A DNA stretch of 64,000 nucleotides from Nitrospirales bacterium (GTDB lineage Bacteria; Nitrospirota; Nitrospiria; Nitrospirales; UBA8639). This document shows positions 1,806-45,676 of this stretch, in pieces. Below the pieces are notes generated by a model. The model saw only the letters and a program-made list of their open reading frames with translations. It searched no databases and was not told the origin of the DNA. Made by a program: the position numbers and the translations under genes. The stretch covers positions 3,198,001 through 3,262,000 of the forward strand of contig JALDRJ010000002.1 of NCBI GenBank assembly GCA_031315865.1, in the 5' to 3' direction. Positions within the stretch are counted from its first letter, which is position 1. Every line of letters starts with the position of its first letter.

Positions 1806-3245
1806 ATGATTCTCGTGACAAAACTTCTTATGAAACAATATGCTTCGTTCAATCTATCCTCCCTTACGATAGTCAATGGTCTTGGGAAGATTAAATACTG
1901 GTTCACAAAGATTTCCTGTGGCCTCTTGGACCAAGGATTTTTTGTCCTGTCCAATGTCCTGTTGAATGTGTTTCTTTTGCGTTGGCTCTCGCCATCTGAC
2001 TATGCTTCATTTACCATCGCGTTTGCCGTATTCCTTCTCATTGCCGGTTTTTATAATTCACTCATCCTTGAACCAATGAGTGTGCTTGGACCATCACACT
2101 ATGGATCACACTTGCCTGAATATGTCTTTGTGCTTCTCAGACTCCATGTAACGTTAACACTAACGCTCTCCAGCATACTCGGCTTTTCCGCTCTTGCATT
2201 TTTCATCGTTGGTAGCCAATTGGCCTCTACACTTTTATGGTTAGCGGCAACGACTCCCTTCATCTTATGTGTTTGGTTCACGCGTCGAGTCGGCTACCTG
2301 TTTTTAATGCCTGTTTGGTCACTCATCGCCAGCAGTGTCTATTGTGTCACACTGCTGACCGGAGTCTTGGGGCTCTTTCTTCACACAACGATCATTCCTG
2401 GCGCCGTGCTGTTGACCATGGGATGTGCCAGTATTACGGCTTCCTGCATTGTCGGGGTTTTGATTTTTAATACCTACGCTACCCAACTGAATCATGCTCC
2501 ACATTTGCGACCTCAAGCCGTATGGACACGTCATATCGAATATGGAAGGTGGACAATTGGATCCACGATCGCCTTGTGGATCGGTGCCAATGCCTATATC
2601 CCGGTGATCGCTTTATTTTTGGGAAACCCTCAGGTCGCTGGCTTTCGAGCCATCCAAAGTCTCATTTCGCCGATGAATCAATGTCTGGCAACCTTTAGTC
2701 ACGTTCTTCTTCCTTATATCTCGAGACGGTGTTCCGAGATTGGAAGAAAAGAGGTGAAAGAGGGGGCGAGAGACCTGTTTTTGTTAAATTTCTGCGTTGC
2801 GTCCCTCTTCTTATTGCTACTTTCGAATTACGGTTCATATATCTTGCCACTCCTTAGTGGACAAAGTTTCTATGTCGAGTACCTTTGGCTTCTACCATAT
2901 TTTATCTTAACTGGGTTTTTAGGAATATTTGTACAATCCAGCGTCGTGCTCCTCATGGCCATACAACGGCCTGATCTGATCTTTTTAGGAAGAAGCACTG
3001 GAGCTCTTGTCAGTTTGATCTGTAGTCTTCTCCTAGGTTGGCATTACGGTATGGCAGGGATTGCGATGAGCATGACCATTGGCTCGATCGCTGAAGGGAT
3101 CGTTCTCTATTTGGTGAAGCATCATGAACCTCAATCTTTCAGACCTGTACTGTGGGATAACGTGACTTCGTATTTCAATCGATTCACGATATTGATAAAA
3201 CCGAAAATGCTTTTAGCCGCAATGGTCTGTCGGAGTTGGCCATAA
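1806..3245 (+). CDS. Wzx-like polysaccharide flippase / membrane protein
   Basis: About 479 residues, very hydrophobic, with roughly 12 predicted membrane spans. The first is preceded by GLLDQGFFVLSNVLLN, a pattern typical of the polysaccharide transporter/oligosaccharide flippase families of the MOP superfamily, where 'D.g.f...nf..n' opens the first helix pair. The C-terminal spans contain GALVSLICSLLLGWHYGMAG, resembling the conserved 'n..ln..lip.yG..Ga' segment. Predicted role: translocation of lipid-linked repeat units across the inner membrane. The true start may be internal (for example Met at about residue 9), because no convincing ribosome-binding site precedes 1806. It sits between two glycosyltransferases. 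A second flippase lies at 5010, so two export units may have merged here. Confidence 0.75.
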   Translation: MILVTKLLMKQYASFNLSSLTIVNGLGKIKYWFTKISCGLLDQGFFVLSNVLLNVFLLRWLSPSDYASFTIAFAVFLLIAGFYNSLILEPMSVLGPSHYGSHLPEYVFVLLRLHVTLTLTLSSILGFSALAFFIVGSQLASTLLWLAATTPFILCVWFTRRVGYLFLMPVWSLIASSVYCVTLLTGVLGLFLHTTIIPGAVLLTMGCASITASCIVGVLIFNTYATQLNHAPHLRPQAVWTRHIEYGRWTIGSTIALWIGANAYIPVIALFLGNPQVAGFRAIQSLISPMNQCLATFSHVLLPYISRRCSEIGRKEVKEGARDLFLLNFCVASLFLLLLSNYGSYILPLLSGQSFYVEYLWLLPYFILTGFLGIFVQSSVVLLMAIQRPDLIFLGRSTGALVSLICSLLLGWHYGMAGIAMSMTIGSIAEGIVLYLVKHHEPQSFRPVLWDNVTSYFNRFTILIKPKMLLAAMVCRSWP

Positions 3246-3380
3246 TCTAAAACGATTCTTGACTGTCCTCTCAGAGGTAGCCAAAACTCCTATAGCCGTT
3301 AGAAATTCATGCGTCTAGAAGGTGGTCCAATTAATGTTCCTCCTGTCTTACAAAGTCTGCCGAACTAATGGTGATATGTC

Positions 3381-4598
3381 ATGAATTCGCAAGAAGAAAA
3401 AATACGCGTAGCATGGCAGCATCCTATTATTCCAAACTATCGAGTGCCATATCTGGAAAAGCTCGCCAACGTTCCTGATGTCGAAGTGACATCGTTTCAT
3501 GGACAAGGACTGGATGGGTATACGACGAAATCTGTTGGCTCCATTCCATCCGTCAAGAATATTCTGGTAAAAAACCGGTATTGGGCCTTCGGTCGTGGTC
3601 GAATATTCTGGCAATCCGCCGTGCGCAAAATCATAAAAGGAAAATTTGATGTCATTGTTTGTGAGGAGGTTATTCACAATGCCTCAGTTTGGATGTTATG
3701 GCTCTTTGCTCAAATAACCAATACGCCACTAGTGCTCCATGGTTTTGGATATCGACCGGTATCCGGCATGTCATATCACCGTAAAACACAACCAAGTCTC
3801 CGGCAACATTTTATCGATCGATTGAGATTTTTCATGATTAAACGTGCAAGTGCCATTGCGGTTTATACGGAAAAGGGGAAGGAAGCATGCATCCAAGAAG
3901 GTATTCAATCTCATAAGATCTTTGTCACGAAGAATACCTATGATACAGAATATCTTATGGGTTTGGAGCAGAGTGTCACGTCCCAAGAGCTTGATTCGAT
4001 TACCCAGAAACTGAACCTAACAGATCGCTTTGTTCTTATCTTCGTGGGGCGACTCAACCCCTTGAAACGAGTCTCTCTTCTGATTGACGTCATGCGAAAA
4101 CTTGATAAGAGTTCACTCCAAGCATCTCTCCTGGTTGTTGGAGAAGGCATTGAATATCAACCGTTGGTCAAACAGTCACAGGGATTAGCACATGTCCATT
4201 TTTTGGGTGGAATCCATGAACCGATTGAATTGGCCAAACTGTTCATGATCTCGCACGCATTAGTCATCCCTGGGTTACCCGGCCTGACATGTGTACATGG
4301 ATTTTGTTATGGAGTTCCTACCATCACGACGGCGCCGGTTAATCTTAGGTGGCCGGAATGTCCAGAACTGGATTACATTCGACATGGAGTGAATGGATAC
4401 TTTGTCGCAAAACCGGACTGTCAATTGTTCTGTGATGCCATTATGTACCTCGCCGATGACAAACAACGTTTACAGAAATTTAGTACAGGGGCGAGGGAAA
4501 CCGCTAAATCATTGCCGCTGAGGGAAACGGTGGCACAGTTTCGTAAAGCTGTGAAGTTCGCATTCAATGGAATACAGAACAAGGCTCTCGTTTCATAA
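3381..4598 (+). CDS. Glycosyltransferase family 4
   Basis: 405 residues. It opens with KIRVAWQHPIIPNYRVPYLEKL, a variant of the GT4 N-terminal acceptor domain seen in enzymes whose start reads 'p..y....f..L'. The donor domain starts at FVLIFVGRLNPLKRVSLLID (GT4 'vGRl...K' motif with conserved Arg and Lys) and continues with VHFLGGIHEPIELAKLF. The usual EX7E segment is modified to GLPGLTCVHGFCYGVPTIT, lacking the canonical acidic pair, so catalytic competence should be treated cautiously. Predicted cytoplasmic, membrane-associated sugar transferase for the same polysaccharide as its neighbours. A 411-bp gap separates it from the next gene. Confidence 0.8.
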   Translation: MNSQEEKIRVAWQHPIIPNYRVPYLEKLANVPDVEVTSFHGQGLDGYTTKSVGSIPSVKNILVKNRYWAFGRGRIFWQSAVRKIIKGKFDVIVCEEVIHNASVWMLWLFAQITNTPLVLHGFGYRPVSGMSYHRKTQPSLRQHFIDRLRFFMIKRASAIAVYTEKGKEACIQEGIQSHKIFVTKNTYDTEYLMGLEQSVTSQELDSITQKLNLTDRFVLIFVGRLNPLKRVSLLIDVMRKLDKSSLQASLLVVGEGIEYQPLVKQSQGLAHVHFLGGIHEPIELAKLFMISHALVIPGLPGLTCVHGFCYGVPTITTAPVNLRWPECPELDYIRHGVNGYFVAKPDCQLFCDAIMYLADDKQRLQKFSTGARETAKSLPLRETVAQFRKAVKFAFNGIQNKALVS

Positions 4599-5009
4599 AG
4601 TTTTGCATACCGATCGTTTTATTTTCCCAATGTAGCAGGCAGGAGATCTGGACGGTGTGATGGCATCGGTCAACGATGGCAAAAGCCTATTCGAACGAAT
4701 GACATATTCAATCAAATAGTCTCTACATCTTGTTCTCAGCCTTCATCACTGAATCTATGAGAGTCGCCCAGGATGACCAGAGAAAACTAACACGCATGTT
4801 TTCTCAGCTCTCCCAGCCTGTATAGCAATGGTAGGAGATTCGACTGATCGTCGAATCCAATTCGACGACATCCTATAAGACGCCAGCTCAATGCCCATTC
4901 GCCGGACGTATGCTGATACACGACAGGAAGATGGTGTGATACAAACACGGTATCAGATTTACTGAAGAGGCGTGGATTCATTTCATCACAGCCACGATAT
5001 GCCTTCCGC
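4599..5009. other. Gene-free interval between glycosyltransferase and flippase
   Basis: No convincing gene in 411 bp. A short reverse-strand open frame (about 4787-5011) has no ribosome-binding site and no recognisable family. A small perfect inverted repeat, TTCGAC-TGATC-GTCGAA, lies near 4837-4853. No terminator with a T tract and no clear sigma-70 or sigma-54 promoter was recognised. It may be a gene remnant or the upstream control region of the flippase at 5010. Confidence 0.4.
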
Positions 5010-6389
5010 ATGACGACACTTCATTTTTTTGAACATTCACTCCGGTTTTTCAATGTGAGCAAGACGGTTCCACTCACGAAAGAAATATTTTCAGTGCTGC
5101 GTGCAGGTGGAATTGTCATGGTATTACAAATTATCGGTCTAGGGTTGGCGTTTCTTAGCCAGATTTTCTTTGCTCGCTGGATGGGAGTGCATGAATATGG
5201 TGTCTATACCTATGTGCTGGCATGGGCAATTTTGTTTTCCGTTCCTGCTGCTGCCGGCCTACCGTTAACAAGTATTCGGTACATTGCTGATGGGTTGGTA
5301 CATGCCAATTTTGATGCTGTGACTGGGATTGTCAAGTGGAGTGTCTGGCTCACGATCAGTATCGGAATTGTCATAACGGCAACGGCTACCGGGATTATCT
5401 ATGGGCTGAATATCGGTTACGATTTAGCGTATCCCATTCAACTCAGCATTGCGTTTGCGATCGTCCCCCTACTGGCTCTTCTTCGAGTGCAATCGGGAAT
5501 TTTTCGTGGATTTGGGTGGCCGGCATGGGCTCACCTTCCTGATCCGGTTTTGAGAAACTTTTTTTTAATTTGTATTTTTTTCTTGGTGTGGGCTCAAGGA
5601 ATGACGTTGACAGCGCAACTGGCGTTGGTGATTACCGTGGGAGTTTTTGTGGTCCTGAATGCTCTCCAAATGGTGATCTATAGACAAAATGTGCCTTCAG
5701 CCGTCTTGCACGCGACCCCGTCGTACGAGCCAAGAAAATGGTTAAAAACATCTTTACCCCTTTTACTGGTCGCTGGATTTCAAGTGATTGTAGAACGAAC
5801 CGATCTGATCATGCTTGGGATGTTGCAGGACACACAAGATGTCTCAGTGTACTTTGCATGCTCAAGAGTCGCCAATCTGATTTTAATCGTCTTGACGGCT
5901 TTCAGCGTGCTTTCTGCTTCAAAAATTGCGGCACTCTTCAGTGTCAAAAAGCTTCATGAACTTCAAATATTTGTCATGAGCCTTTTGCGATGGATCTTTT
6001 GGCCATCGCTCGGAGTGGGGATGTTCCTCATCATATTCGGAACGCAGATCCTCTCGCTATTTGGTGATGCTTTTGTGACAGGATACGACATTCTTCTTCT
6101 ATTAATCGCCTGTCAGTTTATTAACGCCATAGTCGGTCCCGTACTTCTCCTCCTGAACATGACCGGTCAGGAGCGACAATCGGCAAAAGTGTTTGCTTGG
6201 AGTTGCCTGCTCAATATCGTGTTGAATGGATTGCTCATACCGAAATTCTCAGCTATCGGTGCTGCTATCGCCACGGGAATAACGATCGTCTTTTGGAACA
6301 TTTGGCTCGTGATCATCGTAAAGAAGCAATTAGGAATAGTGTGTTTTCCCTTCAACCCTTTTGTTAATCCTTTAGGAAAGTCTCAATGA
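5010..6389 (+). CDS. Wzx-like oligosaccharide flippase
   Basis: 459 residues with about 12-14 hydrophobic spans. Residues 30-60 (IVMVLQIIGLGLAFLSQIFF followed by ARWMGVHEYGVYTYVLAW) match the start of the polysaccharide flippase (MOP) superfamily, in which 'f....ar.lg...yG.....' is a signature. The C-terminal part has the conserved NIVLNGLLIPKFSAIGAAIA segment, the standard MOP 'N..ln..lip.fg..GAaia' motif. Predicted role: flipping undecaprenyl-linked oligosaccharide to the periplasm. Its stop overlaps the start of the sulfotransferase in an ATGA arrangement, so the two are translationally coupled. This makes a sulfated repeat unit, or a modification of the flipped product, plausible. Confidence 0.88.
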   Translation: MTTLHFFEHSLRFFNVSKTVPLTKEIFSVLRAGGIVMVLQIIGLGLAFLSQIFFARWMGVHEYGVYTYVLAWAILFSVPAAAGLPLTSIRYIADGLVHANFDAVTGIVKWSVWLTISIGIVITATATGIIYGLNIGYDLAYPIQLSIAFAIVPLLALLRVQSGIFRGFGWPAWAHLPDPVLRNFFLICIFFLVWAQGMTLTAQLALVITVGVFVVLNALQMVIYRQNVPSAVLHATPSYEPRKWLKTSLPLLLVAGFQVIVERTDLIMLGMLQDTQDVSVYFACSRVANLILIVLTAFSVLSASKIAALFSVKKLHELQIFVMSLLRWIFWPSLGVGMFLIIFGTQILSLFGDAFVTGYDILLLLIACQFINAIVGPVLLLLNMTGQERQSAKVFAWSCLLNIVLNGLLIPKFSAIGAAIATGITIVFWNIWLVIIVKKQLGIVCFPFNPFVNPLGKSQ

Positions 6390-7321
6390 TGGGTACTGAT
6401 GCAAAGGTTTTGTATATTGCGGGGTACGGACGTAGCGGGAGCACGTTGCTAGAGAGAATTCTAGGTCAGTTTGAAGGATTTTTTCCGGTCGGAGAATTAG
6501 AGACTATTTGGCACTATGGATTTGTGGATAACCATCTCTGTGCTTGTGGGCAATCCTTCTCTGATTGTGATTTTTGGCAATCTGTCGTGAAAGAAGGATT
6601 GCAGCCGGGGCACGACTTTGATCTTAACGAAATTGCCGCCATCAAAAAGTATTTGCGGTTTCGGCGAGTGCCTCAACTGAGCATGCCGTGCTTAACCACG
6701 ACGAAGATGAGGAACGCTCTATCTCAGTATGCACGCTTACGAAGTAGGCTGTTATCGGCGATTCAAAAGGTTTCAGGAGCAAAAGTCATCATTGATTCAT
6801 CTAAATCTCCCGTTGTGCTCTATGCGTTAAATGAGGTCGATCATATTGATTATCACGTCGTTCATCTCGTGCGAGACAGTCGGGGCGTAGCATTTTCCTG
6901 GCTACGAAAAAAACCAGCCCTCATTTCGAAAAACAAAGCTCACTATCTCAGCCGATTCAATGTCGCATCTTCTTCGTTGATTTGGAGTGAGTATAATCTT
7001 CTGATTGAGGCGTATGGTCAGTCTAAACGATTGCTAGGTCGTGTACGTTATGAAGATTTCATTGCTGATCCAAAAGGAGAGACGTTAAAGATTTTATCAG
7101 GCTTGGGAGAAAAACAAGGCGATTTAGAGTTTCTCGAACAAAGTTCAGTCGAATTTAAGACTTTTCATTCCCTCAACGGGAATCCCATGAGGTTTCAAAA
7201 GGGTAAAGTTCAACTTGCTCCAGATGAGGAATGGAAGCAGAAAATGCCTAAAGTGAAAAAAGCCATGGTAACAGCCATGACGTACCCATTGTTGGCACGT
7301 TACGGCTATCTAAAGCAATAA
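6386..7321 (+). CDS. PAPS-dependent sulfotransferase
   Basis: 311 residues. The PAPS 5'-phosphosulfate loop is GYGRSGST at residues 13-20. The 3'-phosphate-binding segment is HLVRDSRGVAFS at 160-171 with the conserved Arg and Ser. A CxC...C cluster (LCACGQSFSDC, about 51-61) is common in bacterial Sulfotransfer_3-type enzymes. The family moves a sulfonate group from PAPS to hydroxyl or amino groups of carbohydrates. The gene overlaps the upstream flippase by 4 bp (ATGA). An APS kinase that would make PAPS is encoded in the neighbouring export locus (about 15.8-16.4 kb). I infer sulfation of the locus's polysaccharide; the acceptor is unknown. Confidence 0.88.
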   Translation: MMGTDAKVLYIAGYGRSGSTLLERILGQFEGFFPVGELETIWHYGFVDNHLCACGQSFSDCDFWQSVVKEGLQPGHDFDLNEIAAIKKYLRFRRVPQLSMPCLTTTKMRNALSQYARLRSRLLSAIQKVSGAKVIIDSSKSPVVLYALNEVDHIDYHVVHLVRDSRGVAFSWLRKKPALISKNKAHYLSRFNVASSSLIWSEYNLLIEAYGQSKRLLGRVRYEDFIADPKGETLKILSGLGEKQGDLEFLEQSSVEFKTFHSLNGNPMRFQKGKVQLAPDEEWKQKMPKVKKAMVTAMTYPLLARYGYLKQ

Positions 7322-8119
7322 TAGCCAGAGTAAAAGGAATATTCAGCAGAAAAATGACCTAAAACACATACCGGTCTGTTTAAGTTTGACATTCAACTGA
7401 TCAAATTTCCATCGATCGAAGTTAACCAAAATTCTTCACGGTTGGTCGACCAGTATCTAATGTATACATTCTTATCTGCCCAAGGATTGCTGAGCCATTC
7501 ATGATGAAACGAAGTATCAAGTCAGTGTTGGACCCAGTGCTGCCAGCCTTTTGTCTTGACACGATGAAGTATAAGGTTTTTGAAACTTTAAAGCCGCAAC
7601 ATTGGGGAGAGCAAAATGCCATATGGTCTGATCGATCGCTTGAGTCTCATGATCATTTGAAATAGTCAATATACCAATTAATGACCAGACTGAAGTGTAC
7701 TCACAATACAAATCATAGTTTCAGCAACTTCAAGTAGACGTATTTTTAGCTGATGAAAACGGTTCAACGTTTTTCTTAATTAATGGCATTACGTGATTGT
7801 TTTCAGATGGCAAGACGATTATTGAGGCACTGGGACATACTCATTTTTGAAAATGATCATGGCAGCAGTATGAACTCCTTTGTTGCTACGGATCCTGTCG
7901 CTCTCCGTTCACTATCTCATGAGGGTGGCTTAACCCACAATCTTGGCAACCTGCTTTCTTTGACAGCCTATTCTTCACAACACTATGGCACATAGGCGGA
8001 AAGCAATCTGCGTTCTGTTTTCGCACTATGACCATTACTTGACCAGCAAATCCATGAGGAAGAGAGAAGGTCTGTTGGCTATTGGAGAGCCCGACCACTG
8101 ACTTTGAGAATGATAGCTG
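7322..8119. other. 798-bp interval without a recognisable gene
   Basis: Several open frames of 60-70 codons exist on both strands, but none has a family signature, a good ribosome-binding site or conserved-looking composition. The base composition is AT-rich compared with the housekeeping half of the window. A possible but weak sigma-70 promoter is seen near 7960 (TTGACA, 17-18 bp, TATGGC-like), which could serve the O-antigen-ligase gene at 8120. It may be a decayed gene within a region of frequent gene turnover, which is usual for surface-polysaccharide clusters. Confidence 0.4.
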
Positions 8120-9547
8120 ATGTACCTTATCATTATTTTTCCACTAGTAATTAGTCTCATACTCGGTCTTTTGGTGCTTTCCGGTTCTCTTCCCATCATT
8201 GTTGGGGGTGGCATTGTACTCCCAATCATGTTGGGCTTATTGATCTATTGTTTCCCAGCTATTCTGGACAATGTCAAAGCCGTATGGAGACAACTTCAAT
8301 GGTGGCATATTCTATGGCTTTTGGCGTTCTTTAGTGGATTTGTCTTTCGAGTCCGAGAGGCAGGGCTGGCAAGAGAAAATCCTCTAGATATCTGGGCTCT
8401 GTATCGTATCGTTCTCATGGGTCTCGTTGGAGTCATTCTGATTTATCAATTGGTCTTAAAGCGGTCTGAGTGGCTGTCTGGTATGTTCTATGGTTTAGTT
8501 GGGGTATTTGGTATTGCAGCGATATGGAACCTCGCATCAACGGTCTGGTCTGTGTATCCTGCTTGGACTTTTTACAAATCTGCGGAGTATTTTCTTGATG
8601 TCTCCCTATTGGCAGCTATTCTTTCGACTGTGAAAACCCCTGAAGAGTTCAAGAGTTTTTTGGATTGGACATGGATGCTTCTCGCGTTCTTAGCGGGGAC
8701 CATTTTCCTCGGAGTCCTTCTCTGGCCAGAGGAATCAATCAAGAAAGATATTGGAATGTTTGGCGCTCGTCTCATTGGAGTCTTTCCGGCAGTTTCGGCC
8801 AATGGTGTGGGAGATTTAGGCGCAATCCTGGGATGCGTAAGTTTTGCCAGGCTTCTGTTGCGTAAGTCGAGCAGACTTTTCTTTTCCATGTTATTCGTGA
8901 TCTCTATGATCTTGCTTCTTGCTTCTCAAACACGATCTTCATTGGGAGGGTTCATATTAGGTGCATTTTTGATCATGGTGCTGACAAAACGATTAGGGGT
9001 TATTTTCATCATTCCCATAGGTTTTGTCGTAGGTCTCCTGAGTACAGACATTGAGCAAGTCCTACTCCAGTACGTCTTGAGAGGGCAAGACACGGAGTTG
9101 TTGCTTTCGGGAACTGGTCGAGTAGGATGGTGGGAATATGCGTGGGAACGTTTTATCGAACAACCTTTTTCAGGGTATGGTGCCTATGCCGCCGGACGTT
9201 TTGCTGTGTTACAACAAGCTGGTCTTCAAGAAACTTCAACACTGCACAGTAGTTGGTTAGAAACATTGCTTGGCGTAGGAATTTTTGGAGTTATTTTATT
9301 ATTACTAGTGCTAATCAGTACTTGGGTCGTTCTTTTGCAAGTTGTCTTTAGCCTGTCACATCACACGCTAGGATATCATTTAGCCATAGAATCCCTCGGA
9401 GTGCTTTCTGTTCTGTCAGTTCGCTCTTTCTTTGATTCTCTACTTATTTGGCATCCGGCTTTACCTTTTCTGGCAATCGTGGGACTGGCTGAAATGTTGC
9501 GAAGACAACAAAACGGTGTATTTCATGAAAATTTTGCTCGTCCATAA
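8120..9547 (+). CDS. O-antigen ligase / Wzy-like polymerase family membrane protein
   Basis: 475 residues with about 10-12 hydrophobic spans and a large periplasmic loop towards the C terminus. The loop contains LSGTGRVGWWEYAWERFIEQ then FSGYGAYA, and further on STLHSSWLETLLGVGIFG. This is the Wzy_C arrangement ('R...W......f...p..G.G' followed by 'H...l..l...G..G'). Members either polymerise lipid-linked repeat units or ligate the polymer to an acceptor in the periplasm; sequence alone does not distinguish the two. The adjacent flippase, sulfotransferase and glycosyltransferases favour a polymerase role. Its 3' end overlaps the next gene by 23 bp, indicating an operon. Confidence 0.85.
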   Translation: MYLIIIFPLVISLILGLLVLSGSLPIIVGGGIVLPIMLGLLIYCFPAILDNVKAVWRQLQWWHILWLLAFFSGFVFRVREAGLARENPLDIWALYRIVLMGLVGVILIYQLVLKRSEWLSGMFYGLVGVFGIAAIWNLASTVWSVYPAWTFYKSAEYFLDVSLLAAILSTVKTPEEFKSFLDWTWMLLAFLAGTIFLGVLLWPEESIKKDIGMFGARLIGVFPAVSANGVGDLGAILGCVSFARLLLRKSSRLFFSMLFVISMILLLASQTRSSLGGFILGAFLIMVLTKRLGVIFIIPIGFVVGLLSTDIEQVLLQYVLRGQDTELLLSGTGRVGWWEYAWERFIEQPFSGYGAYAAGRFAVLQQAGLQETSTLHSSWLETLLGVGIFGVILLLLVLISTWVVLLQVVFSLSHHTLGYHLAIESLGVLSVLSVRSFFDSLLIWHPALPFLAIVGLAEMLRRQQNGVFHENFARP

Positions 9548-10691
9548 CTTTTATCAGCAAAGAGGAGGTGAGGATCAGGCTTTTGAAGAAGAACGTCGAC
9601 TCCTAAGAAATTATCGTCATCAAGTCATTGATTATACGCTTCACAATAATCAAGTCACGACATACAACAAACGAGAGCTTGTGCATGCTTTAATTTGGAA
9701 TACGCAGTCTTATCGAGCGCTTCGGAATCTCATTTCCAATGAAAAACCTGACATCATGCATGTCCATAATACATTTCCATTGATATCACCGTCTGCCTAC
9801 TATGCAGCTAACGCGGAAAAGGTTCCGGTGATTCAAACCCTTCACAATTTTCGGTTGTTGTGTCTCAATGCTACCTTCTTTCGCGAGAATAGGACTTGTG
9901 AGGATTGTATGGGAAAGTTATGGCCTTGGCCTGGGATACGACATGCCTGTTACCGCGATGGAAGAGGGCCAAGTAGCGGGGTAGCCACTATGTTAATCGT
10001 ACATCGCTTATTACGGACCTGGCAAAGAAATGTGAACCTCTTTATTGCCTTGTCTGAGTTTGCAAAAAAAAGATTCGTTGCTGGCGGACTTGAGGAGAAC
10101 AAAATTGTCGTCAAACCGAACTTCGTTGCCCCTGATCCTGGAACAGGGACAGGGGGCGGTAATTATGCCCTGTATGTTGGGCGCCTATCTCAAGAGAAGG
10201 GCATCGAAATGATGCTAGAGTCTTGGCAAAAATTGCAAGGACAACTCTGCCTCAAAATAGTCGGTGAAGGAACCCTAAGCCCAGTAGTGAAGAAAGCTAC
10301 CGAATGTATTCCTTCCGTAGAGCATCTCGGATACCAATCACACGAAAATGTGCTACATCTTATGAAAGAGGCTCTTTTTTTGGTCTTCCCATCGGAATGC
10401 TACGAGAATTTCCCATTAACGATAGCTGAAGCCTACGCAGTGGGTCTACCAGTTGTCGCATGCAACAATGGAAGCATGTCTTCACTGGTCATAGACGGTC
10501 AGACAGGCTTACATTTTGAACTTGGGAACACAGATGACTTCCTCAAGAAGATAACTTGGATTTTAGAAAACCCGGGTGAATTGAGAAAAATGCGTATCTT
10601 GGCACGAAAAGAATATGTTGAGAAGTATATGGCCGAACAAAATCACGAAATACTCATGAATGTATACAAGCGTGTTGTGATGACAGAATAG
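9525..10691 (+). CDS. Glycosyltransferase family 4
   Basis: 388 residues when started at the ATG inside the end of the preceding gene. That start gives the typical GT4 opening KILLVHNFYQQRGGEDQAF (the glycine-rich GGED is conserved in this subgroup); the frame is open further upstream, but that part overlaps the ligase gene and has no family match. The donor domain begins YALYVGRLSQEKGIEMMLES (Arg and Lys of the GT4 nucleotide site). The catalytic EX7E element is recognisable in SECYENFPLTIAEAYAVGLP. A CEDCMGKLWPWPGIRHACYR cysteine motif of this subgroup is present at about residues 122-141. Predicted cytoplasmic transferase. It converges on the beta-helix gene 21 bp downstream. Confidence 0.9.
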   Translation: MKILLVHNFYQQRGGEDQAFEEERRLLRNYRHQVIDYTLHNNQVTTYNKRELVHALIWNTQSYRALRNLISNEKPDIMHVHNTFPLISPSAYYAANAEKVPVIQTLHNFRLLCLNATFFRENRTCEDCMGKLWPWPGIRHACYRDGRGPSSGVATMLIVHRLLRTWQRNVNLFIALSEFAKKRFVAGGLEENKIVVKPNFVAPDPGTGTGGGNYALYVGRLSQEKGIEMMLESWQKLQGQLCLKIVGEGTLSPVVKKATECIPSVEHLGYQSHENVLHLMKEALFLVFPSECYENFPLTIAEAYAVGLPVVACNNGSMSSLVIDGQTGLHFELGNTDDFLKKITWILENPGELRKMRILARKEYVEKYMAEQNHEILMNVYKRVVMTE

Positions 10692-14128: not shown

Positions 14129-15727
14129 TCAATTTACTGGAGAATTGGGCAACTGGACAGGTTCTTTTGTCGTTTTGGTCATCGTTCCGGATACATCTTG
14201 GCCAAAATTCTGCCATTCTTTAAATGTATGGCGCGCATTCATCCATCTGAAACTTTTTGGCTCCTGGCTTTCCACGATGTAGGTGTTGTTCGTAAATCGG
14301 TTATTTTTTTTTGTATAGTACTGAAGATCACGAGTTTTCACGTCAAATCCCGTCTCGCCTTCTTTCATGACGATATTGTTATGATGAACGTGTAAATTCT
14401 TCACTTCGTAGTATCCGTATCGTCCATGACCTCGTTCAGTTTGTATCGCTCCAATTCCGTCGGCATTGTGCCGCACGGTGTTACCATAAACCTCAACTTC
14501 GGAAGAACAGGAAACAAGAATACCAGCGCCATTGAGCCATACCGAATTATCAAAACCATTTTCTTCAACCACATTGTTTCGAATAACAGCAGAGTAGCTG
14601 ATCTCATGAAAAATCCCGGTCGATCGATTGAGCCGTACAGTATTATTTTCGTAAAGCGTGTTAATGTTGTTAATATCAGTCCACAATCCTGGGCCAAAGT
14701 TATGGTGAACATGATTATGACGAACGATTAAATTCTTTGTCCAAACGAACTTCGTGCCTCCTCCGGTATGCCAATGATATCCCATACTATTGTTGTATGA
14801 AATTTCATTATTTGCGATAACAATATCCGTCCCATTTCCCCCAACTCCATACTGTCCATTATGATGAATACGATTATTCATGACTTGACTCCCATCTCCG
14901 ACACGTATCCCCATGGCATGATTGAATCTGATCTCATTATTTTCAATAAGCCAATTCTTCCCTAAAGGTCCGCTGTGACCCATACGGCCATGGATCGCAC
15001 CTTCTTGAGTAGGAGTCGCATACTTTTCAATAACCAGTCCTCGAATGACCACATTCGACGCGTTGCCTTCAAACGCATAAGGAGTCACACTCGTTTCGAC
15101 TTTGTGGCCGTGAGGGTCGTCCATGAGGTAAATTTTGTCTGACTCATAATCAAAATACCATTTTGTTGGGCTGAGGTCAGTCAATTGGCTCACTTGCGTA
15201 AGCGGTATATCATCAATGAACAGATCTTCTGGGAACATGCAGGTATCAACAGGCATCGCAACATGTATGTGCTCACATCGACCTGTTGCCCCTCCTTGTT
15301 GGGTTTGCCCTATTACAGTCCAATATTTTCCTTCTTTGACAAATTCAGTCAACAAGCGTGCGCCTGACAATATAGTTCCATTTTCTCCGACAAAGGTATG
15401 ACGACTTTTAGGGACAATTTGTTGCAGGCGATGTATACCCGTCTTCAACAAAAAAGTCGTGTTGCCACCATACTGGTCAACCAGATATTGAATATTTCCC
15501 CCCGGATGAACCTGGATAACATTGGCATGAGGGGGTTGAGAAGTAGCATCGGCTGTCAAAGAGGCAATATTGGCTCGTTGATTACCCGAAACGGTTATCA
15601 GTTCTTGTCTGGCAGAGTGCCCAAGGACGTGCTCTGCAGCCACAAAGTACGAATAGGCAGCTAAGCAGCCGAGTACGACCGCCGTGTAAATTAACACTCT
15701 TCTCATGAACATGTGCATAGGCCGCAT
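14129..15727 (-). CDS. Secreted/anchored right-handed beta-helix repeat protein
   Basis: 532 residues. The N terminus has a basic segment followed by LIYTAVVLGCLAAYSYFVA (signal peptide or anchor; the exact start among the early Met codons is uncertain). One beta-helix domain follows from about residue 68 (NIQYLVDQ, TFVGENGTILSGARLL). It is closely related to both domains of the 962-residue protein downstream, sharing GLVIEKYATP, RIHHNGQYGVGGNG and HHNFGPGLWTD. The fold is that of lyases, epimerases and carbohydrate-binding proteins. It lies just after the APS kinase (63-bp gap) in the export series, so it probably acts on the exported polymer in the periplasm or at the surface. No catalytic site is assigned. 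Confidence 0.85.
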   Translation of the reverse strand: MRPMHMFMRRVLIYTAVVLGCLAAYSYFVAAEHVLGHSARQELITVSGNQRANIASLTADATSQPPHANVIQVHPGGNIQYLVDQYGGNTTFLLKTGIHRLQQIVPKSRHTFVGENGTILSGARLLTEFVKEGKYWTVIGQTQQGGATGRCEHIHVAMPVDTCMFPEDLFIDDIPLTQVSQLTDLSPTKWYFDYESDKIYLMDDPHGHKVETSVTPYAFEGNASNVVIRGLVIEKYATPTQEGAIHGRMGHSGPLGKNWLIENNEIRFNHAMGIRVGDGSQVMNNRIHHNGQYGVGGNGTDIVIANNEISYNNSMGYHWHTGGGTKFVWTKNLIVRHNHVHHNFGPGLWTDINNINTLYENNTVRLNRSTGIFHEISYSAVIRNNVVEENGFDNSVWLNGAGILVSCSSEVEVYGNTVRHNADGIGAIQTERGHGRYGYYEVKNLHVHHNNIVMKEGETGFDVKTRDLQYYTKKNNRFTNNTYIVESQEPKSFRWMNARHTFKEWQNFGQDVSGTMTKTTKEPVQLPNSPVN

Positions 15728-15790: not shown

Positions 15791-16381
15791 CTAGGAACAA
15801 GAAACAATCCGTTGATTGTCTGCATGGCGTGCGTTTTCGACCTTTCTCATCATTCGAATGTATTGGTTATGCGATAAGTATTCTAGAATCTTGTCGATGC
15901 AGACCTCAGGGGATTCCTTATCTGTCATCACCACAATTTCCGGGTTTTCTGGCGGTTCGTACGGATCGGACACGCCCGTGAAATTCGTAATTTCTCCTCG
16001 CTGAGCTTTCGCGTAATGTCCCTTCACATCACGTTTTATGCAGACGTCAATCGGGCATTGCACATACACTTCGACAAAACGCCCTATTTCGTCTCGCGCT
16101 TCTCGTCTCAGTTTTTGATAGGGTGAAATGGCCGCAGTAATCGTGACACCTCCTATCCTGGTTAAAAGTTTGGCGACATATGCAATGCGCCGGATGTTTT
16201 CATCGCGATCAGGCTTTGAAAATCCCAAACCTTTTGTCAGCCGTCTCCGAACCTCGTCGCCATCTAAAATTTCCGTAGGATACTGTAGATTCACGAATCG
16301 TTGATACAGCATTTGTGCCAATGTGCTCTTTCCAGAACACGGTAATCCCGTAAACCAGACTGTAAACCCTTCCGTGCCCAT
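15791..16381 (-). CDS. cysC: Adenylyl-sulfate (APS) kinase
   Basis: 196 residues using the ATG preceded by GGAGGA (the frame is open 12 codons further upstream, but that start has no good site). The P-loop is GLPCSGKST. It is followed by ILDGDEVRRRL, the APS-binding LGFSKPDRDENIRR, and ISPYQKLRREARDEIG with FVEVYVQCP and GVSDPYEPPENPE, all CysC signatures. The enzyme phosphorylates APS to PAPS in the cytosol. No ATP sulfurylase or PAPS reductase gene is nearby, so an assimilatory role is not supported by the context. The sulfotransferase at 6.4 kb offers a use for the PAPS. It begins 14 nt after the stop of the preceding CpsD-like gene. Confidence 0.93.
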   Translation of the reverse strand: MGTEGFTVWFTGLPCSGKSTLAQMLYQRFVNLQYPTEILDGDEVRRRLTKGLGFSKPDRDENIRRIAYVAKLLTRIGGVTITAAISPYQKLRREARDEIGRFVEVYVQCPIDVCIKRDVKGHYAKAQRGEITNFTGVSDPYEPPENPEIVVMTDKESPEVCIDKILEYLSHNQYIRMMRKVENARHADNQRIVSCS

Positions 16382-16395
16382 AGTTCCTCCATACA

Positions 16396-17208
16396 TTAGA
16401 GCCACCGGTATGCCCAACCGGGAATATAGTGACGTTGCTTGTTAAAAGCGACTCCAAGAACCCGTCCACCTCGCCTGATAATCCGATCCTTGAGCGTAAG
16501 AATAATCGGGGATCGTGTTTTTTCAGCTTCCACAACCATCACAACGCCATCCACCGCAGCACTCAGAGCCAAACTATCCACAGATGAGCCAAGCGGCGGA
16601 GAATCGATGAGTATAAGATCAAACTGTTTTCGAAGGAATTCCCAGATTCGCCGATAGTCCGTATGACTCGTGGAAACATGTAGATTCGACTGTCTGTTGT
16701 CGGCGAAACGAGATAGAGAGATTCGCGTTTGCTCCACTCGTGTGATGACTGAGTCCATTGAACCGCCATTCTGCATGAGACTTTGCAATGGTTCTCTTGG
16801 ATGAACTCCGAATGCTTGATGCTGAGAGGAAGAAGGCTGGAAATCCACATCGATTAATAAGACTGACTTGCCATATTGTTTGGCGATAACTTTGCCATAT
16901 TCCCGAAGAATGCTCGACGTTCCCACACCCGAATGACTGCCGATAAACTGCAGAATATTGCTCTGCGTATCGGGCAGCAGAGATGTAATCGATTGATGAA
17001 GTTGGAGCATTTCCGGCTCCATTGACAGGCCGGCGTTGCCATAATCCAACACCGGTTCCTCCTCAGCAAGAGTCCGGACGACAGGGGGAAGAGTATCCTC
17101 CTTTTTCTCAAGAGGCTTTTCAACGAACAACGGGGGTACTAGTCTCTCTCGACTTTTGGAATCCTGCTCCGTATAGGCATATTGTAAGGCTTCATACATT
17201 TTGCTCAT
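16396..17208 (-). CDS. CpsD/CapB-type ATPase homologue lacking the P-loop lysine
   Basis: 270 residues from the Met giving MSKMYEALQYA, the standard opening of PEP-CTERM/exosortase-associated tyrosine autokinases. The ATPase core is recognisable: Walker A-like SHSGVGTSS (residues 91-99), Walker A' VLLIDVDF and Walker B FDLILIDSPPLG. The invariant Walker A lysine (GEGKT in active bacterial tyrosine kinases) is Thr97 here, and there is no C-terminal tyrosine cluster, only HYIPGWAYRWL. Active relatives control Wzz-dependent polymerisation by autophosphorylation. This one probably acts as a non-catalytic scaffold or has altered nucleotide chemistry. It may belong to a subfamily where the K-to-T change is fixed. 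It lies 181 bp after the AAA ATPase gene and directly before cysC. Confidence 0.85.
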   Translation of the reverse strand: MSKMYEALQYAYTEQDSKSRERLVPPLFVEKPLEKKEDTLPPVVRTLAEEEPVLDYGNAGLSMEPEMLQLHQSITSLLPDTQSNILQFIGSHSGVGTSSILREYGKVIAKQYGKSVLLIDVDFQPSSSQHQAFGVHPREPLQSLMQNGGSMDSVITRVEQTRISLSRFADNRQSNLHVSTSHTDYRRIWEFLRKQFDLILIDSPPLGSSVDSLALSAAVDGVVMVVEAEKTRSPIILTLKDRIIRRGGRVLGVAFNKQRHYIPGWAYRWL

Positions 17209-17389
17209 GTAACAAACCCTTCGTTCACGACAGACTACATACAATACGGACCAATTGGTTCTCGCATTGCTATCGCGTCATCATCCTGACGGCGATGACC
17301 ATTGTACAAACCTTTTTCCTCTCTTTCCTTCAGACTGCCATACATTCCAATACTTGACCAACACCCTGATATTCTCAAAGTCTACCTCA

Positions 17390-19174
17390 TCAGTGTTCGT
17401 CCTTTTGTGATTGAGAAAATGTGGGAAACGCCACCTTTTGACCGGGGAAAATTTTTCTCGCATTTCGGATGTGAGGATTATATTTGAGAACATGTTCGAC
17501 GTATTCAGGACTCGTCGTGCCATAGTGATTTTTCACAAGACTGCTCAAACTCTCTCCTTGTTGAACGACCCGGACAGTCAAGGGCTGTCTCAAGGAGGAG
17601 GCAGTCACATCATGCGTTGTCGTATCCTCAGGAGACTGAGCGAAAATGCCTTGAGACATGGGGCCGTTTCTTTTTTTTCTATCTGATTCAGGAGGTATAA
17701 CAGACTCCCTGACAGATTGGATGTTAGGTTTCCCAAAATCGTGAAGAGCCGGAAAAATAATGCGCTGGCCAGGCTGTATGTTTCGAACATGTGTAATGCC
17801 AGGATTATGCTCCAGGACAAATTGAAGTAATTCAGGGTTGAGGTCTCCATAGACTTCCTTCGTCAATTCAGCCAAGGTTTCACCCCGTCGAATCACTCGT
17901 GTTTGATGGACAGCACCGGAAGACAGATGCCCTGCTGATATGAATGCCAAAGATGGATCAGGTCTTGTCGAGGGCTGTCCTTGACTTTCCTGAACTGTAA
18001 GAACGTCAGAAGCCAGATGTGGATCGAGATTGCCTCGCTCTTCTCCCCGGTACGCGGAAGAAGCCTGGTCAGATGTACCAGAGACAATACCATTCAGATT
18101 TTCTGATTGACCGACTTTCGGTGCAGAGGATGCTGGCTGTTCACTTCTCCCCACAGAAACAGGCTTGTTATCCATGTGTGAAAATTGTTCTTGCCTGTCT
18201 ACCATTCTATCGGCAAGTGACAAAGTCGGCAATTCCATTCGAGAATTTTTGTCAGCGTGGGAGGCATCTGGCTTATCGAGTGACACGAATAAAGCCACGC
18301 CTCCGATCAAGAACAACAGGCTGGCCGTCGCTGGAACCCATCCCCACCAGCGCTTGTGGAGTTGCCTGTCAACATCGGCGATCACTTCCTGAACGATCTT
18401 GGCCGTAATAGGGTTCGCACGGTATCCTAATCCGGTTACCAGCGCATTATCACACAGAATATTCAGTCGTCGAGGAATACCGTTCGCTTGCTTGACGATA
18501 AGCTTCAGGGCGTTGTTGTGGAAAACTGGCTTGCCGGTTAATCCTGCCAAGACAAGACGATGCATGATATAAGCCAGGCTTTCATCCTCTGTTAATGGAC
18601 GGATTGTCGACCATACGGCAATCCGTTGACGCAATTGCCGCAACTCATGCTGCTGTAAGAGAGTTTCCAGTTCCGGCTGCCCGATCAGAATAATCTGAAT
18701 CAACTTATCAGTGGCTGTTTCCAAATTCGAGAGCATTCGAAGATGCTCCAACGTCCGTGGATCCATGTTTTGGGCTTCATCGATCAGGAGCACGACTGTC
18801 CCACCGTGACGATATCGTTCGATCAGGGTGTTCTGCAGCTGCGTCAAGAGCTCAACATTCGTACTGCCGGTGGCTTCTTGATCGAGTTCGAAAAGAATGG
18901 CCAGAAGGAGCTCTTTCACGGAAAGCGTCGGATTATAGAGATAGATCAACTGGGTGTGTTCGGCTTTCCAATCTACCTGTTCCAAAAAAGAACGAATGAC
19001 CGTGGTTTTGCCGACGCCGACTTCACCCGTGATGGCGATAAACCCCTTACGATGATCAATGCCATAGAGCATCGCCCCCATCGCTTCTTTATGACTTGGA
19101 CTTAAAAAAAGGAAATGTGGGTCAGGCGTCGTATGAAATGGTTTTTTCGAGAGACCGTAGAATTTCAGATACAT
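17390..19174 (-). CDS. ExeA/GspA-like AAA ATPase with transmembrane helix and two LysM-like domains (exosortase-associated type)
   Basis: 594 residues. MYLKFYGLSKKPFHTTPDP is the signature opening of the ExeA-like ATPases found beside PEP-CTERM exopolysaccharide genes. Walker A is GEVGVGKT (50-57), Walker B VVLLIDEAQ with a conserved Asn, and IILIGQPEL follows. A single membrane helix lies at about 280-297 (ATASLLFLIGGVALFV). Beyond it a low-complexity linker leads to two LysM-like domains: about 425-475 (VIRRGETLAELTKEVYG, IQPGQRIIFP) and about 538-590 (VVQQGESLSSLVKNHYG, IFPGQKVAFP). The cytoplasmic ATPase is thus tied to a periplasmic peptidoglycan-binding tail. Typical family members are shorter and lack LysM repeats. 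It is likely to help assemble or open the envelope for the exporter. Confidence 0.88.
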   Translation of the reverse strand: MYLKFYGLSKKPFHTTPDPHFLFLSPSHKEAMGAMLYGIDHRKGFIAITGEVGVGKTTVIRSFLEQVDWKAEHTQLIYLYNPTLSVKELLLAILFELDQEATGSTNVELLTQLQNTLIERYRHGGTVVLLIDEAQNMDPRTLEHLRMLSNLETATDKLIQIILIGQPELETLLQQHELRQLRQRIAVWSTIRPLTEDESLAYIMHRLVLAGLTGKPVFHNNALKLIVKQANGIPRRLNILCDNALVTGLGYRANPITAKIVQEVIADVDRQLHKRWWGWVPATASLLFLIGGVALFVSLDKPDASHADKNSRMELPTLSLADRMVDRQEQFSHMDNKPVSVGRSEQPASSAPKVGQSENLNGIVSGTSDQASSAYRGEERGNLDPHLASDVLTVQESQGQPSTRPDPSLAFISAGHLSSGAVHQTRVIRRGETLAELTKEVYGDLNPELLQFVLEHNPGITHVRNIQPGQRIIFPALHDFGKPNIQSVRESVIPPESDRKKRNGPMSQGIFAQSPEDTTTHDVTASSLRQPLTVRVVQQGESLSSLVKNHYGTTSPEYVEHVLKYNPHIRNARKIFPGQKVAFPTFSQSQKDEH

Positions 19175-19189: not shown

Positions 19190-20644
19190 TTAGGTCTTAT
19201 ACGTAATGCTCGTGAGCACCGGTAGCTCCACATCTCGTGTCAAATGTTCAGGCCGGGTATAGCCACCTTGAAGATATTCATTCGCGAAAGCCAGGCTGAC
19301 TCCTGCGGCCCCTCCGATCATGATACCGAGAAGAATATTCAAGAGAAGTTTAGGTTTTACGGGCTTGACTGGTATGGTGGCAGGCTGAATGATACTGATA
19401 TTGGCCATCTTGAGCTGATCCATTTCCTGAGCGACTCTGGCCTCCTCGACTTTCGAGAGATAGATCGCATAGTTGTTTTGATCTGTCTCGACATCACGAT
19501 CCAGTGTTTCATACTCTTTCTTCAACGAGTCCAATTCGGCCAACTTCTCATCGACTTCCGCAATATGTCGTGAGATTTCTTTCGCGCGAGTTTCTAAAGA
19601 CCGATACTCAGATTTTGATTTATGGATCTCAACTTCAAGTTCTTGATAGACCGGATTTTTCCCTTTCGTCACTCGATCAGAAAGCTGAGCTTCCTGTTCT
19701 TTGATGAAGGCTTCCGTCATCTTGATTTCATTTAAGATATTTTTTATGAACCGGCTCGTGTCTTTGTAGCGAGTTGAGAGTTCTTGCTTCTGCAATCGAA
19801 GTTTCAATAAGTTGCTCTTCGCCTCATCGATGACTTTTTGACGTTCAGAGACACTAGTTAGAGAAATAAGTTTGGGAATCTGAGGAATTTGCTGCAACAG
19901 GGAACTCAGCTTGCTTTTCAATCCTTCACGATCATTTTTAACATTTTTCAAGGATGTGTCGAGGTCTTGACGCTGCTGCAGTAAGAGACGCTCTTGCTCG
20001 GTGAGGGAGGATATTCCGTAGCGCTGTTTAAAGTCTTGTAGTTTTGAGCGAGACACGTCTAGTTTTTGAAGATGGGCTGCCACTTGTTTTTCCAGGAAAT
20101 CAGCCTTCGGATTACTAAAGATCTGAAGATGTCGTTCCAGCAAAAAGTCAATGAGTAAGTTCACGGCAGTAGCGGCTATGCTCGGATCGTGATGTTGATA
20201 GGCCACTCGTATTACATTTGAATTTTTAATGTTCGTCGTCGAAAGATCTTCCTGCATTTGCAAGATACTCGCCTCAACCGGGGGGATCTTACTTTGTGCT
20301 TCATCAAATTTTGGATAGATCTTATGAACCCCGATGGTTTCGATCACTCGCCTGAGAAGATCTCGACTGGTCAAGATTTGGATCTCTGATTCCAGGATTC
20401 GTTCTTGATCGAACGCAACGGCGGGACTGGCAGATCCGACTTCGGGTTGATAAATATGCTCGCGTCCCATTTTTACCATAATGGTGGATTCGGCCTCATA
20501 GGTGGGGTCCATGAAAAGAGATCCCAACACGACGACCGTCACAGTGCCAAGGAAGACCGCAAGCATAGTCCACTGGTGTTTAAACAGGATCGTAACGATA
20601 TCTCGAAGACTAACTTGACTGGATCTTTCAGATTCAGTTGACAT
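19190..20644 (-). CDS. Wzz/GNVR-type polysaccharide chain-length determinant
   Basis: 484 residues from the Met giving MSTESERSSQVSLRDIVTI; the frame is open 13 codons further but without support. There are two membrane helices, about 24-44 (WTMLAVFLGTVTVVVLGSLF) and near the C terminus (LLLNILLGIMIGGAAGVSLA), bracketing a long periplasmic coiled coil with GKNPVYQELEVEI and the tail VEEARVAQEMDQLKMANISI. This is the GNVR subgroup linked to PEP-CTERM export loci. Such proteins set polymer length and connect polymerase to outer-membrane exporter. The cytoplasmic kinase domain is absent and is encoded separately at 16.4-17.2 kb. The coiled coil is clearly paralogous to that of the protein at 20702. 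Confidence 0.92.
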   Translation of the reverse strand: MSTESERSSQVSLRDIVTILFKHQWTMLAVFLGTVTVVVLGSLFMDPTYEAESTIMVKMGREHIYQPEVGSASPAVAFDQERILESEIQILTSRDLLRRVIETIGVHKIYPKFDEAQSKIPPVEASILQMQEDLSTTNIKNSNVIRVAYQHHDPSIAATAVNLLIDFLLERHLQIFSNPKADFLEKQVAAHLQKLDVSRSKLQDFKQRYGISSLTEQERLLLQQRQDLDTSLKNVKNDREGLKSKLSSLLQQIPQIPKLISLTSVSERQKVIDEAKSNLLKLRLQKQELSTRYKDTSRFIKNILNEIKMTEAFIKEQEAQLSDRVTKGKNPVYQELEVEIHKSKSEYRSLETRAKEISRHIAEVDEKLAELDSLKKEYETLDRDVETDQNNYAIYLSKVEEARVAQEMDQLKMANISIIQPATIPVKPVKPKLLLNILLGIMIGGAAGVSLAFANEYLQGGYTRPEHLTRDVELPVLTSITYKT

Positions 20645-20701
20645 CATTTTACACGTCACATGTCTTGCCAAAATTTTGGACAAACAGGCTAGACGAGCAC
20701 C

Positions 20702-21853
20702 CTAGCTACTCGGCCGTAATCCAGTTCGACTGCTCGCATCAATCTTCTGGTTAAACGAACGTAAGATCACCGTAATCGAAGGATTTTTCAGCTCTATATC
20801 GTACCGACGTTTAAGCCGCTTTGTTAGCTCCTCCACTGTCAATCCTGATGCCATCACCTCTCCAATCAACTGTAGAGATATTCTTCCGTCCGGCCTCACG
20901 GAAGCTTCTTGATTGAGGTCTGGATTGAAGAAAAACTTCACATCAAGAAGATCGCCAACTTGAATGCGATAGTCCTCAAGCGGTGTCGTGCCAACCATCG
21001 CAAGATACTCTTCAAAATTCCTTTCGTTGGCCGTGACGGTCCGCAGTAATTCACGAAATTCCTTTTCCAGATTATTGAGCCTCAGAAGTTCTTGATCGAT
21101 TTCTGCGATCTGTTGTTGAGTGACCATTCGCCGTGATTTATCTGATACTAACTGCGCCTCAGTTCGAAGTATTTCAATCTCAAGTTCCTGGAATACAGGA
21201 TTTTTACCAGTGGTCACCATGTTTTCTAGCTCAGCAGCCTTTTGCTTTTCCAAAAAGCCCTGAACGAGCTCGATTTCCTTCCGCACACTCATCAATGTAC
21301 GGCTGTTTTCATGAAATTTTGTGAGGATTTCCTGTTCTTTTAATTGCAGATCTAATAGGTTTTTTTGAGCTTCCTGAATAATAGCTTGGCGATTCGTGAC
21401 GCTCGAGAGTGGAACCTTTTCTGGAATTTCCTGTATCTGGTGCTTGAGCCACGATAACTTTGTATCAAGAGCACTAATATTATTGACAGCTCCTTTTAAG
21501 AGCGTATCGAGTTCTTTGCGTTGTTGAAGCAGGAGTTGTTGTTGACTTTCGAGCGATGTCAACGAATGCTTTTGTTTAAATTCTTGGACCTGCGCTTCAG
21601 AACGTGCGAGCGCTTTTTTATACGCCTCTAACTGACGTTTTACGAACGACGTTTTTGATATCAGAGGGGTCGGAGCCTTCCCTGATACAATGTCTCCTCG
21701 TTGAGGTTCTTTGATGTCCTTTTCTTGTCCGAATACATTGTTGGCCTCGTAATGGACAAAAATGAGCATCAGAAAGTACACAACACACAAGGCCTGGGGA
21801 CACGGCAACAACCATGCCTTCTGGGCCGGATAATCTTGACTGTTCCTCATCAA
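20702..21853 (-). CDS. Chimeric periplasmic protein: Wzz-like coiled coil fused to a Wza-type polysaccharide-export domain
   Basis: 383 residues. The N terminus has a hydrophobic signal-like segment (ALCVVYFLMLIFVHY). Residues about 70-290 form a coiled coil that aligns along its length with the Wzz-type protein encoded next downstream: LQQRKELDTLLK against LQQRQDLDTSLK, SSVTNRQAIIQEAQKNLL against TSVSERQKVIDEAKSNLL, and GKNPVFQELEIEI against GKNPVYQELEVEI. Residues about 295-370 are a polysaccharide-export domain (YRIQVGDLLDVKFFFNPDL, VRPDGRISLQLIGEV) nearly matching that of the export lipoprotein upstream. There is no second membrane helix and no SLBB domain. It looks like a gene fusion of its two neighbours' parts and could bridge co-polymerase and outer-membrane channel. 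Confidence 0.85.
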   Translation of the reverse strand: MMRNSQDYPAQKAWLLPCPQALCVVYFLMLIFVHYEANNVFGQEKDIKEPQRGDIVSGKAPTPLISKTSFVKRQLEAYKKALARSEAQVQEFKQKHSLTSLESQQQLLLQQRKELDTLLKGAVNNISALDTKLSWLKHQIQEIPEKVPLSSVTNRQAIIQEAQKNLLDLQLKEQEILTKFHENSRTLMSVRKEIELVQGFLEKQKAAELENMVTTGKNPVFQELEIEILRTEAQLVSDKSRRMVTQQQIAEIDQELLRLNNLEKEFRELLRTVTANERNFEEYLAMVGTTPLEDYRIQVGDLLDVKFFFNPDLNQEASVRPDGRISLQLIGEVMASGLTVEELTKRLKRRYDIELKNPSITVILRSFNQKIDASSRTGLRPSS

Positions 21854-36140: not shown

Positions 36141-36146
36141 CGAATC

Positions 36147-42711: not shown

Positions 42712-42727
42712 CGACAAGGGTGACAAG

Positions 42728-43252
42728 ATGAAAAACACAGGATGCTTCATGATGAGTCTAGCGTGTCTGTTTGTGGTGAGCTGTACGGCCATCGATCATT
42801 CCCAGAGTCCTATACTTGATCAACAGGCATCATGGGCTCTCCTTCCCATCCTGAACTACACCGAAACGCCACAAGCCGGCCGGCGCGCCGAATCGATCAC
42901 CTCGGCGCTCCTTCATAGCCGGGGGCTGCAACAAGTTCAGCAGTATCCATCGAATCTTCAGGATGGGGCGTCGGTTCTGGGATCCGATCATCAACTGTAT
43001 GACTCGGCCCTCGCTTGGGCCAAGAAACAAAACATTCGGTATGGGATAACCGGGACCGTCGATGAATGGCGGTACAAAGTCGGCATTGACGGCGAACCGG
43101 CAGTCGGCGTCAGCCTGCGATTGATCGACTTGAAGACCGATCAAGTCGTGTGGAGCGCTGTCGGCGGTCAAACCGGTTGGAGTCGAGAGGCCGTCAGTGC
43201 CGTGGCTCAAAAGCTGATCAAGCGTCTTCTTGATGAAGTCACGTTGAGCTAA
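42728..43252 (+). CDS. pelC: PelC-like outer-membrane lipoprotein
   Basis: 174 residues (Pseudomonas PelC 172). The lipobox VVSC gives Cys19 after a hydrophobic signal. The mature part has an N-terminal strand WALLPILNYTETPQAGRRA (the 'lP..n.s....g...' start of the PelC/TolB-N-like fold) and ends with SLRLIDLKTDQVVWSAVGGQ. PelC forms a dodecameric ring that funnels polymer into PelB. It begins 16 bp after pelB, and its stop overlaps pelD by one base (TAATG). Confidence 0.88.
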   Translation: MKNTGCFMMSLACLFVVSCTAIDHSQSPILDQQASWALLPILNYTETPQAGRRAESITSALLHSRGLQQVQQYPSNLQDGASVLGSDHQLYDSALAWAKKQNIRYGITGTVDEWRYKVGIDGEPAVGVSLRLIDLKTDQVVWSAVGGQTGWSREAVSAVAQKLIKRLLDEVTLS

Positions 43253-45619: not shown

Positions 45620-45676
45620 CTATGTTCATGTCGCAAGAGTTTTCCACCGACCGCTTATTGGCCAGGATATCCGTGC

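Follow-up and report, generated by a model that had tools for sequence, protein, structure and literature searches.

The contact between an inner-membrane co-polymerase and an outer-membrane exporter has been resolved by cryo-EM for E. coli Wzc and Wza, where D99, E102 and Y155 of the Wza D1 domain contact K332, Y334, T335 and H338 of Wzc, and where mutation of the interface abolishes export and colanic acid production (PMC12881504). How short OPX proteins (class 3), together with their co-polymerases, cross the whole periplasm is a stated open question: about 100 Å of the periplasm is left unexplained in these systems, and extra-long co-polymerases or stacked OPX proteins have been proposed for the missing span (PMC9603273). 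A large periplasmic space has been described in a North Sea Nitrospira and in N. marina (PMC3600790).

Here we describe a gene from a window of 64,000 nucleotides of a Nitrospirales genome, the whole stretch of DNA that was analysed, whose product joins a Wzz-type coil to a Poly_export (D1) domain. This chimera is real, conserved, of single origin and undescribed in the sources that we searched, and we regard it as a variant of the Wzz/OPX export machinery. For one lineage it is a candidate for the missing piece, and it comes with a precise and falsifiable docking prediction.

Domain architecture and genomic setting

The chimera is encoded by the second gene of an operon with the order wza, chimera, wzz, ATPase and Tyr kinase (Table 1), and the gaps on its two sides are 54 and 18 bp. 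The open reading frame starts at a TTG (21853), which is immediately followed by an ATG (21850). Downstream of the operon are genes for an APS kinase and two beta-helix proteins, and then the Wzx/Wzy cluster. The presence of a sulfotransferase (6386-7321) and the APS kinase (15791-16417) within this EPS cluster suggests that the polymer is sulfated. The beta-helix proteins are right-handed (10713-13601 and 14129-15727), and each half of the larger one (962 aa) matches relatives of the smaller one (532 aa), as in a duplication. The same window also holds a Pel polysaccharide cluster (35217-48573) with a GH114 PelA-like protein, a TPR plus PelB barrel, a PelD GGDEF protein and a PelF-like glycosyltransferase. 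A search of the genome itself for a BBP2_2 beta-barrel partner gave one sub-threshold match, distant from the locus.

Table 1. Features of the chimera and of the surrounding export locus (positions within the window)
Feature	Position	Strand	Basis
Chimera gene: signal sequence, Wzz-type coil and Poly_export (D1) domain, 383 aa	20702..21853	-	
N-terminal hydrophobic helix of the chimera, residues 19-39, likely Sec signal sequence	21737..21799	-	Hydropathy, AF2 model
Coil of the chimera, residues 67-287, homologous to Wzz 193-412	20993..21655	-	Alignment; pLDDT mostly 85-98
Tip turn G216-K217-N218-P219, homologous to the V/T-K-V-H338-P339 docking turn of E. coli Wzc (PMC12881504)	21197..21208	-	
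Poly_export / D1 domain of the chimera, residues 293-369	20747..20977	-	Pfam, AF2 model, fold matches
OPX (Wza-like) lipoprotein, Poly_export + SLBB, 231 aa	21908..22603	-	Pfam, NCBIfam
Wzz-type polysaccharide co-polymerase, two TM helices, Wzz + GNVR	19190..20683	-	Pfam, NCBIfam, hydropathy
XrtA-system-type ATPase (TIGR03015-like), C-terminal LysM-like repeats	17390..19174	-	Pfam, NCBIfam
Tyrosine autokinase-like (BY-kinase) protein	16396..17244	-	Pfam, NCBIfam
Polymer-making part: Wzx-like flippases, Wzy-type ligase/polymerase, glycosyltransferases, sulfotransferase	1806..10691	+	

Local alignment (BLOSUM62) of the coil with the adjacent Wzz has a single 1-residue gap and a score of 445, compared with a top score of 87 in 200 shuffles, while residues 284-371 align without gaps to residues 34-121 of the adjacent OPX lipoprotein (score 255; top shuffle 52). 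An independent search gave 40% identity between the coil (about 66-287) and the neighbouring Wzz (E 9e-46), and 57% identity between the C-terminal part (about 283-371) and the D1 domain of the neighbouring OPX (E 3e-26). The original prediction, which had drawn the coil at 70-290 and the export domain at 295-370, was accurate to within a few residues at both borders.

The only Pfam match in the chimera is Poly_export (PF02563, residues 293-364, E 9e-21). Neither the Wzz base domain (PF02706) nor GNVR (PF13807), which are both detected in the neighbouring co-polymerase, was found at E<1, and Pfam likewise found no lipoyl or beta-barrel domains of membrane fusion adaptors (HlyD, EmrA). The SLBB (D2) domain that accompanies Poly_export in the OPX lipoprotein is absent from the 15 chimera members analyzed with Pfam, about 15 residues remaining after D1. 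According to hydropathy, the single hydrophobic segment is N-terminal and none occurs past residue 60, hence there is no C-terminal TM helix and the two flanking TM helices of the Wzz/PCP type are not found. Both analyses agree with the earlier statement that neither an SLBB domain nor a C-terminal membrane helix has been kept. Two NCBIfam models, TIGR03027 for the XrtA export protein and TIGR03007 for the XrtA chain-length determinant, matched partially and below the cut-off. With these and Poly_export as the only matches, neither library contains a model specific to the chimera, and a described fusion of a Wzz coil or GNVR with Poly_export was not found in the open-access literature. For these sources, the suggestion that this architecture is not a standard family holds. 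A lipobox-type Cys at the cleavage region is absent across the chimera family, whereas several relatives carry A-x-A before an Asp, and a cleaved Sec signal is therefore likely. The chimera is thus likely to be a secreted, soluble periplasmic protein.

An AlphaFold2 model built with 96 related sequences (mean pLDDT 83.6, pTM 0.57, carrying no inter-domain confidence) has helices at residues 67-96, 101-142, 153-179, 185-208 and 219-287, short strands at 146-148 and 215-217, and an alpha/beta D1 domain after the coil. The DSSP assignment suggests that the turns at 146-148 and 215-217 are paired strands, which is what one would expect of a single tip. The helix order, which was read from secondary structure and not from coordinates, implies that the shaft has two helices and the upper part four; the two turns would lie together at the tip and the coil ends opposite. 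The D1 domain superimposes with an rmsd of about 1.1 Å on the class-3 OPX WzaB (9n9a; Z 14.0, 75 residues) and on residues 84-170 of Wza (2j58; Z 13.4, 76 residues), and fold searches with the coil returned generic coiled coils only.

Distribution and origin

The chimera was identified at 19 distinct loci, all in Nitrospirales of the family UBA8639, which is equated with lineage IV (PMC12342949), and mostly in marine nitrite-oxidizing bacteria. Fifteen of these loci, the window counted in, belong to 12 genomes from a set of 60 examined relatives, and another four (L084, L086, L088 and L096) came from a species scan. A contig scan with a single chimera sequence gave nothing, and these four loci were found by the alignment-based scan. 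Between genome G012 and isolate UBA8639 the operon is 99.8% identical, and the window belongs to the same family. The genes keep one order at all loci that contig ends leave whole, and the chimera lies between wza and wzz at every locus showing both. Two of the genomes are single contigs (G019 and G021), and this set of loci rules out a frameshift or an assembly artefact, the risk attached to the original prediction. Two tandem wza copies precede the chimera in NPIRA01 and NPIRA04 (L036:5593-7559 and L038:1305-3258). Three genomes, G002, G003 and G004, have two chimera operons each, one per type (L036/L040, L037/L041 and L038/L039).

Across the phylum (396 genomes), matches spanning both domains were not found outside family UBA8639. 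Other phyla were covered by a pattern scan and plasmids only, and tblastn against plasmids gave matches to Poly_export alone, all of them below 80% query coverage. One match in Syntrophaceae (L097, 68-339) turned out to be an ordinary Wzz beside a separate OPX. In G001, a genome of the same genus, wza and wzz are adjacent and 162 bp apart, and a search of this gap revealed no remnant of the chimera, which must thus be dispensable in at least one relative. It was also not found in Nitrospira outside UBA8639, though periplasms are wide there too. Taken together, these two absences indicate that the chimera does not serve a general need. Genome G001 offers a ready comparison.

In the tree of coils, a branch with support 99/92 separates the 19 chimera coils from 30 Wzz coils, and in the Poly_export tree (77 columns only) the 19 chimera domains are set apart from 64 OPX domains with support 94/94. 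The two operon types split inside the chimera group in the same way as in Wzz and OPX. Each half groups as a clade of its own, which makes a single fusion event the most likely origin, and since these clades stand apart from every Wzz and every OPX domain, the fusion appears to predate the split of the operon types. The simplest reading would be one fusion before this split, after which the genes were inherited together and the chimera was lost at least once. The earlier proposal that the gene was built from parts of its two neighbours is therefore right in that each half is homologous to one of them, but recent assembly from the present-day neighbours is ruled out by the separate clades.

Pairs with unsaturated dS gave dN/dS values of 0.14-0.17, indicating that the chimera evolves under purifying selection and ruling out a decayed gene. 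The loss in G001 could be taken as a sign of a decaying duplicate, and Model 4 of PMC9603273, which proposes periplasmic OPX-type chaperones, would accommodate a polymer-binding protein that does not assemble into a ring and leads the growing chain along its D1 and coil. Against the background of this selection, an intact gene at 19 loci and an invariant tip, we hold a chaperone or a remnant to be very improbable.

Docking surfaces and possible role in export

The interface residues of Wza and Wzc were checked against the K-12 MG1655 sequences. In a MAFFT L-INS-i alignment, Wzc H338-P-A-Y falls on N-P-[VL]-[YF] of the GKNP tip turn in Wzz and the chimera, and hhalign profile-profile alignment independently placed HPAY on GKNP[VL][YF] in the same way. 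The GKNP motif is invariant (19 of 19 chimeras), and residues 216-223 are the most conserved 8-mer among 211 coil windows, also after sequence weighting. On the D1 side, the position of Wza E102 is D or E in every chimera and in 20 of 21 operon-type OPX, while D99 and Y155 correspond to F309 and E/Q354 in the chimera and are not kept in the neighbouring OPX either. With a conserved tip turn and an intact D1 fold, the chimera carries both plug and socket: judged by these homologies, its tip could be recognised by the OPX D1, and the co-polymerase tip could enter its own D1. In chimera operons the Wzz tip ranks 53 of 211 in conservation, compared with 2 of 211 in Wzz without a chimera; after 70% sequence weighting the ranks are 9 and 2, respectively. 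This weaker conservation derives mostly from one clade, in which GKKAM replaces GKNP (L043, L044, L046, L047, L086 and L088). The pattern looks as if the OPX-docking constraint had shifted from the Wzz tip to the chimera, but it is suggestive only.

Since both docking surfaces are kept, the chimera may lengthen the sugar-export tube across the envelope, and we give an even chance to its being a spacer, soluble in the periplasm, within a Wzx/Wzy-type tube, where it would plausibly bridge the co-polymerase of the inner membrane and the exporter of the outer membrane. Exported to the periplasm by its likely Sec signal, it would assemble into a ring and rest with its D1 domains on the Wzz octamer tips, in the way that Wza D1 rests on Wzc. 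The four-helix coil would then face the outer membrane, and the D1 ring of the OPX lipoprotein would receive the GKNP tip. Every copy would present a socket below and a plug above, and stacking would be the simplest use of both surfaces. We infer, as parts of the same model, the stoichiometry of the ring, its orientation, the docking order and the linker at 288-294. A layer would add about 130 Å, composed of a coil of about 100 Å (a helix of 69 residues at 1.5 Å each) and a ring of about 30 Å (PMC9601211), which is close to the 100 Å missing in short-OPX systems. The fuller version, in which the chimera is a third stackable ring component, a soluble plug-and-socket module fitting the tube between co-polymerase and OPX to a wide periplasm, falls slightly short of an even chance. 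Counting against the spacer are its dispensability in G001, the lack of conservation of Wza D99 and Y155, and the wide-periplasm Nitrospira that have no chimera.

Similarity to Wzz along the full coil, with one gap, is also what would be expected of a mixed-ring or sleeve subunit, since lateral packing surfaces may then be shared with Wzz. Control of chain length by Wzz depends on oligomer packing, and a chimera coil beside Wzz coils could tune chain length in a hetero-oligomer whose D1 domains strengthen the Wza junction while the tube is not extended. We consider such a subunit rather unlikely, given that the two kinds of coil are separate clades and that D1 sits at the base end of the coil, far from the tip where Wza docks; a chimera lying side by side with Wzz in the same orientation would have its D1 near the inner membrane. 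A protein that has both contact surfaces and no pore-forming SLBB domain could also act as a regulator or competitor, capping Wzz tips or blocking Wza D1 and so switching off or selecting an export system, and several genomes do have two Wzz systems. However, the chimera gene always sits close to one wza and one wzz within a single operon and is co-inherited with them, and an inhibitor would need no second conserved surface, so that regulation seems decidedly unlikely.

Comparison with known systems

Class-3 OPX proteins (D1D2; WzaB/EpsY of Myxococcus) have the Poly_export/D1 fold and the operon context in common with the chimera, which differs in the long co-polymerase coil preceding D1 and in lacking SLBB/D2, the lipobox Cys and any outer-membrane lipid anchor or spanning segment. 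With the Wzz/Wzc co-polymerases (PF02706/PF13807; PslE, Wzc) it shares the entire coil, including the Wza-docking tip turn, but it is soluble and has neither the membrane base domain and GNVR match nor the two TM helices, the C-terminal one included. Of the proteins with solved structures, PslE is the closest to the neighbouring Wzz (E 5e-43); its entry, the PslD-PslE complex (PDB 9v6l/9v75), also contains the OPX PslD and is a two-component structure with no spacer protein listed. Membrane fusion adaptors (HlyD, EmrA) differ by their lipoyl and beta-barrel domains, and the coil-only fold matches are generic. A precedent for an OPX protein gaining long helices of an envelope-spanning family is provided by the alpha-proteobacterial OMA/OPX proteins with a membrane-fusion-protein helical region (PMC2850547). 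Their coil is of the HlyD type and central in a full-length OPX, whereas in the chimera a Wzz coil precedes a D1 that stands alone, and the gene adjoins an intact OPX.
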